NCBI GenBank assembly: GCA_902762655.1
Contig: CACWOZ010000002.1
Span: forward strand, 30,743-94,742
DNA: 64,000 bases
Origin: an uncultured Bacteroidia bacterium
Lineage (GTDB): Bacteria > Bacteroidota > Bacteroidia > Bacteroidales > UBA932
Reading direction: 5' to 3'
In this document: positions 22,368-25,624 of the stretch, piece after piece
Layout: every line of letters starts with the position of its first letter
Position numbering within the stretch: position 1 is the stretch's first letter
The notes under the pieces: model-generated
Told to the model about the DNA's origin: nothing
Seen by the model: the letters and a program-made list of their open reading frames with translations, nothing else
The model's database searches: none
Translations under genes and position numbers: made by a program

Positions 22368-22436
22368 CTTTTTGCCGGAGCATTTGTCCGGCGAAGCATT
22401 TTTTCGGCGAGCCGGAAAATGACTCCGGCAAAAAAG
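22368..22436. repeat. Palindromic element A, intergenic
   Basis: Arms 22368-22392 and 22411-22436 pair over about 25 bp, with GCCGGAG repeated outward and GTCCGGC inward. They enclose the 18-nt loop GAAGCATTTTTTCGGCGA. It fills most of the spacer between the aldolase/SDR gene and the SorE-like gene. The loop is shared in pattern with elements at 23736, 24425 and 25047. It could also act as an attenuator, since its arms are tipped with T/A runs. Confidence 0.8.
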
Positions 22437-22437
22437 C

Positions 22438-24408
22438 CTAGGCAAGCATTACCTGGCCGCCCGTCACCGGAATTGCCTGGCCGGTCTCGCCGGTCTGCTC
22501 GATTGCATAGAGGATCGCACGTGTCACATCCAGGGGATTGCATCCCTTGTGCATGGGCACTTTGCTAAGGTAGTACTCCTTCACGTCCTCCACAGTCTTT
22601 GCGCCGGGCACCTTGCCTGCATTGAGATACTGCACATAGAGCCCCTTCACCGGGTCGCTCCACAGCGGACCGTCCAGGAAGTTTCCGGGGCAGATGCTGT
22701 TCACCTTGATGCGGTAGGGGGCGAGTTCGAGGGCGAAGGACTGGGTGAGCCCGATGCCGCCGAACTTGCTTCCGGCGTAGGCGAAATTGGCCTTGCTGCC
22801 GACCAGTCCGCTCTTGCTGTTCACCTGGATGATGTCGGCGAAGTATTCGGGATCCACTGCAGTCTGCAGTTTCATCACGTGCTGGGCAACCTTGGCGCAG
22901 TAGAAGTATGCGCTGTAGTTGATTTTGGTCACGAATTCCATATTCTCGGGAGTCATGGCCTCGAGGTCGCCTGCTCGAACGACGCCGGCGTTGCTTACGA
23001 ATGCGTCAAGCGCACCGAAGTTGCAGATGGTCACAGCCATAAGATTGTTCAGGCTCTCCATATCGGCGACATTGGTCTTGACGAAGATGGCCTTGTTGTT
23101 CTTGGCAATCTCATTGAAGGATGCTGCCGTTGCCTCTCCGGTTACCTCATTGAGGTCGGCGACAACGATATTGGCACCCTCTTTCATAAGTTCGCGGGCG
23201 ATTCCCTCGCCGAAGCCTTGTGCCGCGCCGGTTACGATTATTGTCTTGCCTTCTGCGCGTCCTGCGGATGCTCCTGCGGATACCTTGCGGCGGTAGTTCT
23301 CAACTTCCCAATTATCGATGAAATCGATCCACCTGGGCTCCATCGGATGTTCTCCACCGAATGCCTGGGCACCGGCGGCGACCTTCATCGCATCCAGGAA
23401 TACCTCTGTGATGATGCCGGCATTCTTTGCGTTGTCGCCCACGGCTACCAGCCCTATGCCCTTGATGAGCAGCACCTTGGGAGTGTGGCCGTATTTGGAG
23501 ACATAATCTTCGATGGCCTTTTCGGCATCAGCGGTGTCTTCAAGCCAGATGTAGTGACTCTTGCAATACACTATGATGTCGGGCGTGAAGGGAGCGGACA
23601 CCTTCTTGAATCCGGCTTTGCTTTCGGTGAACTGGTCGGTCAGTTCATTCTTTGTGACATTCAGCGTCTTAAGCCCGCGTCCACTGCGACTCAGTATCTG
23701 GCGGATTGCAGGGATGGACTCCACAACAGATGAAGCACTGTCGGAGACGGCGCTTTCCTCTTCGAGGCATTTTTCTGCCGAGAAGAGGAATGACGCCGTC
23801 GCAGACCCCAGTGTTGCAATGATCTCGCTATATATCTTGTCTATTTCCGCGACAGAATCGGCTCCGACAAAGATTCCATGATTCTGCAGGAAGATGACCT
23901 GAGGTTCAGTTCCGCGGGCCGCCTTGTAGGCCTGGATCTCGTCGAAAACCTTTTTGAAAAGGGTATAGCCGGGATCGCAGTAGGGGATATAGAGAGCATC
24001 GGGGAACAACTCCTTGCACTTGGCTTCTGCCTGCACCGAGCACATCAGAGCATTGACTGCCGTAGGATGCAGATGGACGACGAATGCATAGTTGATGGCA
24101 TTGTGCATCGAAGTCTCCACCGAAGGACGGCGGTCCTTGGTGATGCAAGCCGCAGCGAGGTCGTCTTTCACCTGGGCTTCACGCTCGGCAGTGTCGGCAC
24201 TGTAGGCCTTGGTGCCCATTGGATTCAACTTGGCACGGTCCAGAACCGCGAAACCATCTTCTCCGATTGTTGCGAGTGCGTGGCCGCTGGCTTTCACCCA
24301 CAGGCGGTCTGCGGTCTTGAAAGACGTATTGCCACCCCCGGCAATCACGAAACGCGAATCAGCCCCGTACCTGCGGGACACCTCTATCAATTGTTCAATC
24401 TCTTTCAT
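22438..24408 (-). CDS. Bifunctional class II aldolase / short-chain dehydrogenase
   Basis: Two-domain enzyme of 656 residues. The N-terminal class II aldolase domain (about 1-360) has E98, H112 and H114 in HLHP, and H177 in QNHG. The C-terminal SDR domain (about 388-656) has TGAAQGFG at 393-400 and YAGSK (Y544, K548). Its end (ETGQAIPVTGGQVML) resembles sorbitol-6-phosphate 2-dehydrogenases. The architecture is that of the RhaD-SDR fusion family, which links aldol cleavage and oxidation in deoxysugar or ketose-phosphate catabolism. Residues 199-225 are encoded by palindromic element C. The substrate is not determined. Confidence 0.87.
   Translation of the reverse strand: MKEIEQLIEVSRRYGADSRFVIAGGGNTSFKTADRLWVKASGHALATIGEDGFAVLDRAKLNPMGTKAYSADTAEREAQVKDDLAAACITKDRRPSVETSMHNAINYAFVVHLHPTAVNALMCSVQAEAKCKELFPDALYIPYCDPGYTLFKKVFDEIQAYKAARGTEPQVIFLQNHGIFVGADSVAEIDKIYSEIIATLGSATASFLFSAEKCLEEESAVSDSASSVVESIPAIRQILSRSGRGLKTLNVTKNELTDQFTESKAGFKKVSAPFTPDIIVYCKSHYIWLEDTADAEKAIEDYVSKYGHTPKVLLIKGIGLVAVGDNAKNAGIITEVFLDAMKVAAGAQAFGGEHPMEPRWIDFIDNWEVENYRRKVSAGASAGRAEGKTIIVTGAAQGFGEGIARELMKEGANIVVADLNEVTGEATAASFNEIAKNNKAIFVKTNVADMESLNNLMAVTICNFGALDAFVSNAGVVRAGDLEAMTPENMEFVTKINYSAYFYCAKVAQHVMKLQTAVDPEYFADIIQVNSKSGLVGSKANFAYAGSKFGGIGLTQSFALELAPYRIKVNSICPGNFLDGPLWSDPVKGLYVQYLNAGKVPGAKTVEDVKEYYLSKVPMHKGCNPLDVTRAILYAIEQTGETGQAIPVTGGQVMLA
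23736..23813. repeat. Palindromic element C, in frame inside the aldolase/SDR gene
   Basis: Left arm 23736-23763 and right arm 23782-23813 pair with small bulges, sharing GACGGCG and CCTCTTC. They surround the 18-nt loop GAGGCATTTTTCTGCCGA. The element encodes residues 199-225 of the aldolase/SDR protein, a Ser/Ala/Glu-rich stretch beyond the last metal histidine. The reading frame is kept. The loop matches elements A, B and D. Confidence 0.75.
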
Positions 24409-24424
24409 AGTTATTATTATTTGA

Positions 24425-24483
24425 GTCGGTTCCTATTGCTTTTCGGAGCATTTTTTCTGCGGAGAAAAGCAATAGGAACCGAC
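24425..24483. repeat. Palindromic element B, intergenic
   Basis: Perfect 20-bp arms (24425-24444 and 24464-24483, outer part GTCGGTTCC/GGAACCGAC) enclose the 19-nt loop GGAGCATTTTTTCTGCGGA. It occupies most of the 82-nt gap between the PHP-domain gene and the aldolase/SDR gene. It has the same loop pattern as elements A, C and D. Confidence 0.85.
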
Positions 24484-24490
24484 GTCCAGA

Positions 24491-25624
24491 TCATGAAATT
24501 TTTTTTAGGATCAGATCCTCGCCAGCCGCAATGGAGTCAAGCCCTGCTTGATGCGCTGCAATCGCGCAGGCGCCACGGAAGTTGATGGCCTTCAGCTTGT
24601 CGGAAAGGTCAGCGGCATCGCGAGTGCGAAGCTTGATGGGCTCCATAGCCGGCGTATTGTGCTCCGAACCGAAACTCACGATGAACCCTTCGTCTTCCAG
24701 ATATCCGGCATACTGCTCCAGAACGGCGGTGGTGTTACGGGTGGTAATGAACTCCACAGAACGGAAACCGCGCTTTTTCAGGGTATCCGCAGCTTTCTGA
24801 AGATCGCCCTCAAAATCAGTGAAATTTCCCTTGGCGTCATCTGCCAGGAAAGGATAGGTGGGTATGCCTCCGGCAGCCTCGATGATGCGCTGAACGGTAG
24901 TCATCGGAAGGAAAGCCTTGGGATCTTCCGGCACGAAAGCAGCACCTCCAGCCTTCAGCAAACGGCTGCGAATCTCGTTCTCTATGGCCGCGACGTTGCT
25001 CACATCCGACTTCGCCGCCTGCCCAAAGATCTTCGCGTAGTGATCAGCGATTGCCTGGAGTTCCGACGCGGACGCTTTTTTTGCTTGAGCGTCGGAGACT
25101 CCAGCAAGCGCTATACGTTCTACTGCAAGTCGCAACGCCTTGGCAAGGTGCCTCTCGCGGATAGAACCGCGGGTAAGATCGGCGGCAATCTTTGCAAAGT
25201 CCAGCGTGAACTCCTCGCCAACAGTTTTCAGATGCTCGTTCAGTTTGACGCACATGCGCTCCACCTGGGCATTGCTCTCGGCCTTCACGTCCGCAAGTTG
25301 GCGGGCTTCTTCTCCGGAGAGAATGACGGGATATGCCAGACCCTTGCCGCTGATATAGGTACGGCCGGGATTGTTGGGGTCGTTCACGCGCAGGCCTGCA
25401 GCCTGATCTTCGGCATTGAGGGAGATGAACTCGATACCAAAAAGAGGGAAGAGGGCGCGCTCGGCGCAGCCCTCCTTCCAGTCCTTGTATCCGTCCATCG
25501 AATAGAAATCGTTGATTCCCACAACCTTGACTCCTTCGGAAGCGGCCATGTCAAGGGCCTGCTTCACATCGCTGAAAGCGCTGAAGGAGTATGGGGTGTG
25601 CAGATGGGCATTTACATCTATCAT
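24491..25624 (-). CDS. PHP-domain metal-dependent phosphoesterase-like protein
   Basis: Protein of 377 residues with a PHP (polymerase and histidinol phosphatase) metal-binding N-terminus, H7 and H9 in NAHLHTPYSFSAFSD. Later candidate ligands include the histidine of FGSEHNT and a late AAHQAG. PHP proteins hydrolyse phosphate esters with two or three divalent metals. Residues about 172-193 (Ala/Lys/Ser-rich) are encoded by palindromic element D. It is 3 nt downstream of the E1 gene, within the operon. Its substrate is unknown; a sugar phosphate would fit the neighbours. Confidence 0.78.
   Translation of the reverse strand: MIDVNAHLHTPYSFSAFSDVKQALDMAASEGVKVVGINDFYSMDGYKDWKEGCAERALFPLFGIEFISLNAEDQAAGLRVNDPNNPGRTYISGKGLAYPVILSGEEARQLADVKAESNAQVERMCVKLNEHLKTVGEEFTLDFAKIAADLTRGSIRERHLAKALRLAVERIALAGVSDAQAKKASASELQAIADHYAKIFGQAAKSDVSNVAAIENEIRSRLLKAGGAAFVPEDPKAFLPMTTVQRIIEAAGGIPTYPFLADDAKGNFTDFEGDLQKAADTLKKRGFRSVEFITTRNTTAVLEQYAGYLEDEGFIVSFGSEHNTPAMEPIKLRTRDAADLSDKLKAINFRGACAIAAHQAGLDSIAAGEDLILKKIS
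25047..25111. repeat. Palindromic element D, in frame inside the PHP-domain gene
   Basis: Arms 25047-25069 and 25089-25111 pair along CTGGAG and CCGACGC with small mismatches. They enclose the 19-nt loop GGACGCTTTTTTTGCTTGA. The element encodes about residues 172-193 of the PHP-domain protein and keeps the frame. The loop design matches A, B and C: a T-run on the plus strand, or A-run in the mRNA, flanked by GC and GA steps. Confidence 0.7.

Follow-up and report, generated by a model that had tools for sequence, protein, structure and literature searches.

Short palindromes with a common T-rich apex, dispersed between genes and in frame within them in a Bacteroidales genome

In 64,000 nucleotides from an uncultured Bacteroidia bacterium (contig CACWOZ010000002.1, positions 30,743 to 94,742; the window, i.e., the whole stretch of DNA analyzed), we find four short palindromes, E1 to E4 (Table 1), which probably belong to a dispersed family of small, non-autonomous DNA palindromes resembling the Rickettsia palindromic elements (RPEs), mobile and with their arms kept alike by copying at the DNA level. 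A preliminary description made from the letters of this DNA had suggested an RPE-like mobile or amplified element in Bacteroidales, and our results support that suggestion, with mobility inferred from the dispersal of the family, its presence and absence at orthologous sites, and an inverted copy. The four palindromes stand where that description had placed them, two between genes (E1, E3) and two within genes (E2, E4), with arms of 20–25 nt and T-rich loops of 18–19 nt. The stretches of E2 and E4 are stop-free in their reading frames, bearing out the claim that both lie in frame without breaking the gene. The T-run is always on the forward strand and the genes are on the reverse strand.

A loop of 14–23 nt with T5 on a strong stem occurs, on both strands of the 64 kb, exactly at E1–E4. 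Eight strong palindromes with a loop of at most 24 nt were detected in the window, and in the four besides E1–E4 no arm exceeds 16 nt and the loops have nothing in common. In dinucleotide shuffles of the window (n=40), no palindrome attained the score of at least 28 reached by E1–E4, and four in total attained at least 20. In the 2.18-Mb assembly, a loose apex pattern gave 16 matches versus five for the reversed pattern, with 12 of the 16 lying inside a palindrome (two of those 12 being weak). We reject a chance origin of the family on the basis of the shuffles and this reversed-pattern control. An assembly artefact is an unlikely source, because E1, E4, L054, L057, and others recur in other assemblies (L and G numbers are our handles for loci and genomes).

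The common loop plan that had been described holds for its T5-7 run and GC/GA parts; the ‘loop’ itself is better understood as a structured apex with mismatched purine-rich feet (often GA versus GA), a GCN/NGC mini-stem, and the T5-7 run. Copies in this genome have arms of about 17–28 nt and loops of 18–23 nt (palindromes mostly 48–76 nt, with a core length of the element of about 55–67 bp), and the apex is identical across 23 nt at unrelated sites. The stems had been called unrelated, which is true of the private stems of E3 and E4, a class with stems similar only beside the apex, if at all, but not of E1 and E2, which have common stem motifs and fall under one covariance model (R2, built from eight copies). 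R2 defines subtype A, a coherent sequence family with the plan GACCGGMGCTTTTCC, variable part, GAGCC-T6-GGCGA, variable part, GGGAATGACKCCGGC; E2 is an R2 seed, and E1 matches R2 at E=2.3e-7 though not a seed. A second model, R1, built from 11 own-genome copies, shows pairing in 87.3% of cells versus 63.2% in shuffles, with 14 of 15 pairs changed on both sides, a description rather than a proof, because its copies were found through the apex and retained in part on account of their stems. E1 is in neither seed alignment, L043 and L062 were omitted from alignment A4, and L166 from alignment A8. Family members fold strongly on either strand. The earlier view that structure rather than sequence is conserved thus stands as to the frequent compensatory changes, but not as to the apex, whose sequence is also conserved, nor as to subtype A with its conserved stem motifs.

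Table 1. Palindromes E1–E4 and the two genes carrying E2 and E4, in window coordinates; for the palindromes, the strand is that of the T-run.
Feature	Position	Strand	Remarks
E1, intergenic palindrome, arms 24 nt	22369..22434	+	subtype A, divergent
E2, palindrome in frame within aldolase/SDR gene	23740..23806	+	subtype A; residues 201-223
E3, intergenic palindrome	24425..24483	+	private stem, 20 bp, perfect
E4, palindrome in frame within PHP gene	25046..25112	+	private stem; residues 171-193
E2 host gene: class II aldolase/short-chain dehydrogenase (SDR) fusion, 656 aa	22438..24408	-	Pfam Aldolase_II + adh_short
E4 host gene: PHP-domain protein, 377 aa	24491..25624	-	Pfam PHP

About half of the copies in this genome are intergenic, and 14 lie inside 11 stop-free open reading frames (ORFs), in both orientations. 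With host domains assigned by Pfam, and with short names that we presume to apply (IspH, TruB, AtpB, RnpA, and GcvPB), the frames with one copy encode the aldolase/SDR protein, the PHP protein, a 385-aa ORF without a Pfam match, IspH, shikimate kinase, TruB, AtpB, and GcvPB, while those with two encode a metallo-beta-lactamase-fold hydrolase, a pseudouridine synthase with an S4 domain (opposite orientations), and RnpA. IspH and TruB each contain the peptide TGAFPAEPFFGEDGNDAG or a near form of it, and the hydrolase contains it twice. The insertion site in the aldolase/SDR family is a linker of strongly varying length. As a separate observation, one relative (G100; L272, L274) has a different palindromic repeat (CGTGCCACCCGCGGCACGGAAGCGGGGGGACC) in shikimate kinase and IspH, where this genome has subtype A.

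Further copies, on which the preliminary description had made its case depend, were found with the apex pattern and with both models, and related species carry copies too. At least 27 positions of the assembly match R1 or R2 at E≤0.01, two of them doubtful (C1:243968, without purine feet, and C7:76330, with a poor stem); at E≤1, R1 gives at least 28 matches and R2 at least 19. The E-values of these searches are rough and the counts are lower bounds, since scoring covered 150 of 743 (R1) and 150 of 389 (R2) candidates in this genome and, for the large R2 runs, 14 candidates from each genome. Among 400 sampled genomes of the genus, 15 including this one (14 of the 399 others) have R2 matches, at least 58 in total; in a sample of the order, none of 392 other genomes matched, leaving this one alone among 393. 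The matches of G079, G403, and G390 at E>0.003 may be chance, although one G390 match is orthologous to the own-genome copy L061. R1, run on 40 relatives, gave nine matches in six genomes (best 6.2e-5), seven of which look unrelated and are mostly terminator-like. Subtype A is thus restricted by lineage. Of the 14 other R2-carrying genomes, 10 gave an aldolase/SDR match at E≤1e-100, with 82–96% identity over the matched parts, versus 72–77% in six genus members without R2 matches. Such apices are not confined to R2 carriers, because in G021, which is not one, L079 and L084 have one variant apex on two unrelated long stems and look like kin. The earlier guess at Bacteroidales also fits, the nearest named relatives being metagenome-assembled genomes of that order, by title mostly from the ruminant forestomach. 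By flank similarity, 30 subtype-A copies form 15 groups, a number that may overcount sites because some left flanks resemble each other. Four exact patterns found no match in viral contigs, nor did one subtype-A copy, the sole query tried there, in phage and plasmid collections.

At orthologous sites, relatives differ with the frame kept, as the preliminary description had expected of a mobile element: at 17 of 18 compared own sites, the element is absent from at least one relative, the exception being the IspH site, where the relatives seen carry an inverted copy or a different insert. For L056, there was no orthologous match among the matches listed, and L240 and some other stretches of relatives are not in the alignments. 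E1 is common to G136 and G189, and the other 11 of 13 aligned relatives lack it; E2 has one-arm remnants in G136 and G114 and no palindrome in the remaining 11 of 13; E3 is present in none of 12 relatives examined; and E4, with 11 relatives aligned, is also in G114, has a single arm in four, and is missing altogether in six. L054 lies directly behind a stop codon, and G136 has it while four others do not. Neither arm is present in the empty relatives at E3, L050, and L054. Elsewhere, a similar apex sits on a differing stem, namely at the L051 site (G186, G345, G390), at the L053 site (G100), and, by eye, at the L062 site (G394), and the RnpA site of G100 has a 23-nt apex identical to the one here, on an unrelated stem. 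The one-arm alleles of E4 may be deletion remnants, because outgroups have a longer linker. A first reading of these alleles, that the arms were made by inverted duplication of host flanks, was set aside in view of the short linker and of complementarity that stops at the flanks (no extension into them; subtype A permutation p 0.06–0.40). One arm of E2 somewhat resembles, by eye, the element-free relative L152, yet it fits the subtype-A consensus too. L061 (C4:89116) lies, by eye, just upstream of a gene that we take to be a tmRNA gene; this copy is common to three relatives, one of which has an additional half copy.

The IspH site provides the inverted copy: a 72-bp stretch that includes the element matches G136 and G189 at 97% identity in the opposite orientation, in surrounding 601-bp alignments of 76–77% identity. 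Either there were two insertions, or the sequence flipped inside the palindrome. Pairing was followed in 43 matches fitted to R2 (alignment A7, 38 distinct rows), where 95.0% of cells pair and double changes occupy 102 cells versus 28.1 in shuffles. Outside the one pair of columns 16–50, its mismatches comprise 12 G.T, 11 A.C, and 18 others, and selection on RNA is not evident, because G.T and A.C are about equal apart from this one T.G-rich position. Between orthologues (19 comparisons, 11 sites), 338 of 405 stem pairs are unchanged and 12 have changed on both sides and still pair, which exceeds chance, estimated at about one. Template switching is reported to homogenize arms and invert spacers in yeast genes (PMC8604942), the same processes are reported in RNA genes (PMC8794818), and template switching can also create hairpins (PMC8794818, PMC8604942).

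We propose that the palindrome spread inside a clade of ruminant-associated Bacteroidales, landing, in either orientation, in intergenic DNA or, with the frame kept, in variable protein segments that would tolerate a short extra peptide. The constant apex would be the likely recognition feature and target of a trans-acting enzyme that moves the element, one arm would be copied onto the other at the DNA level through template switching at the hairpin, keeping the arms complementary at least in part, and copies would decay through the loss of one arm.

Several results weigh against this proposal. We found no transposase tied to the element and no target-site duplication, no precise empty site being close enough to read one; such a duplication, along with the terminal inverted repeats of a known insertion sequence, would mark a miniature inverted-repeat transposable element (MITE). 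The IspH inversion may be an in-place flip rather than a second insertion. In A7, 21 of 38 rows have T.G at the pair of columns 16–50, and inclusion of this pair brings G.T to 33 versus 12 for A.C, which favors either the RNA view or a fixed mismatch. In the orthologue stems, one-sided changes (14 G.T, 11 A.C, 23 other) outnumber double ones 48 to 12, and arm copying is therefore not dominant. Lastly, the assembly contains no second copy of any of 11 private arms (those of E3, E4, and others), with the best foreign match at E=0.24, and simple copy-and-paste thus does not explain the private stems.

A set of larger palindromes has a comparable build. In seven such palindromes from six genomes, private stems with arms of 13–31 nt, different in each case, enclose a long G-rich core. 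In this sister set (L113, L136, L243, L241, L319, L072, L004), the core is about 68–83 nt with two GGGAGGGG-type motifs, and the set reaches G014, a genome without an R2 match. At the pseudouridine-synthase site, G136 has a long core on nearly the same stem that bears the short apex here. Combining a constant core with a private stem may be a general design in the genus.

A further reading, which we hold as a tentative possibility well behind the above proposal, is a modular mobile hairpin, of which only the apex or core would be transmitted, with a new near-perfect private inverted-repeat stem made at each insertion instead of being inherited. The 11 private arms, the RnpA-site apex in G100, L079 and L084 in G021, and the seven long-core palindromes count as signs for it; we know of no mode of transposition that gains a new stem per insertion.

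It is unlikely that the hairpins are structured RNA elements, i.e., terminators, attenuators, or processing signals, maintained by selection on the transcript. Strong folding, the compensatory changes, the common T.G pair within subtype A, and the intergenic position of roughly half of the copies in this genome are all compatible with such a role. At L051, by eye, relatives have terminator-like hairpins with the same apex plus a T-tract, and two relatives have ordinary terminators. However, 14 copies lie inside reading frames in both orientations, G.T and A.C are balanced outside one pair, and some relatives have no hairpin between the genes flanking E1 and E3. Rfam gave only weak miRNA-type matches, with no family hairpin reaching the curated gathering cut-off among 7 + 7 loci, where one tRNA gene in L040 did reach it. 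An intrinsic terminator is also at odds with a T-run placed in the apex and with the copies in ORFs, though some intergenic copies may act as terminators.

Movement as a repetitive extragenic palindrome (REP) by a REP-associated tyrosine transposase (RAYT, of the Y1 type) appears improbable. Of 23 genomes searched, 20, with this genome among them, have Y1_Tnp-type genes, and subtype A has an ATGAC/GTCAT motif like CGTC-type repeats and RPE-4/6/7; yet such genes also occur in 7 of 10 genomes without R2 matches, 28 Y1 genes (30 loci) have only two clear family copies nearby, about 1.1 and 3.6 kb off, many Y1 loci have different palindromes, and a terminal GTAG or CGTC tag was not seen. Genomes of the genus carry several Y1-transposase genes with other palindromes close by (L295-L324), and L146 and L216 have, by eye, TGTCATTCCGAGCG-type repeats like widespread CGTC-like palindromes. 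The least probable and already disfavored account, that template switching makes each hairpin de novo and locally, with an apex common by chance or convergence, draws on the private stems and on the known capacity of this process to create and homogenize hairpins and invert spacers (PMC8794818, PMC8604942), but is countered by the 23-nt apex identity at unrelated sites, the coherence of subtype A, complementarity that ends at the host flanks (p 0.06–0.40), and the lack of either arm in empty relatives at E3, L050, and L054.

Rickettsia is the best-known case of palindromes inserted in frame into functioning proteins, and how this happens is not settled in the literature covered. Empty sites, one-arm alleles, and an inverted copy occur together in this second case, from a species-rich bacterial genus, which makes the insertion mechanism testable. 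The case also offers a series of naturally occurring peptide insertions in broadly conserved enzymes, e.g., IspH, TruB, AtpB, and RnpA, and a case of near-perfect hairpins seemingly maintained by DNA copying rather than RNA selection.

In the open-access library searched, we found no description of such a family from Bacteroidales. The coding palindromes of Nematomorpha mitochondria are likewise near-perfect inverted repeats in genes, but are described without a dispersed common unit (PMC6649704); the palindromic repeats of Volvox organelles are similarly short and selfish-looking with recurrent loop words, but mostly noncoding with loops of 3–5 nt (PMC2670323). GTAG/CGTC REPs are also dispersed palindromes, and the subtype A stem contains a CGTCATTCC-like stretch; their stems are of 6–13 bp (GTAG) or 8–9 bp (CGTC) with a mostly short loop, whereas here arms and loop are longer, the motif is internal rather than a terminal tag, half of the copies are in genes, and the copies do not lie beside RAYT genes (PMC3733652). 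RPEs, especially RPE-4/6/7, share more: they are short palindromes in frame in unrelated genes (here 14 copies in 11 stop-free ORFs) with a recurring peptide, differing insert groups occur at one orthologous site, and the ATGAC motif recurs, here in subtype A only (PMC10969869, PMC3767692). They differ in length (about 100–150 bp versus about 55–67 bp here) and in host (Rickettsia/Wolbachia versus Bacteroidales), the comparison with the RPE consensus being by the ATGAC motif only, and the present elements have a constant T-loop apex and often private stems. The family is apparently undescribed and distinct from the Rickettsia palindromes, which, by analogy of build and placement, remain its closest counterpart.

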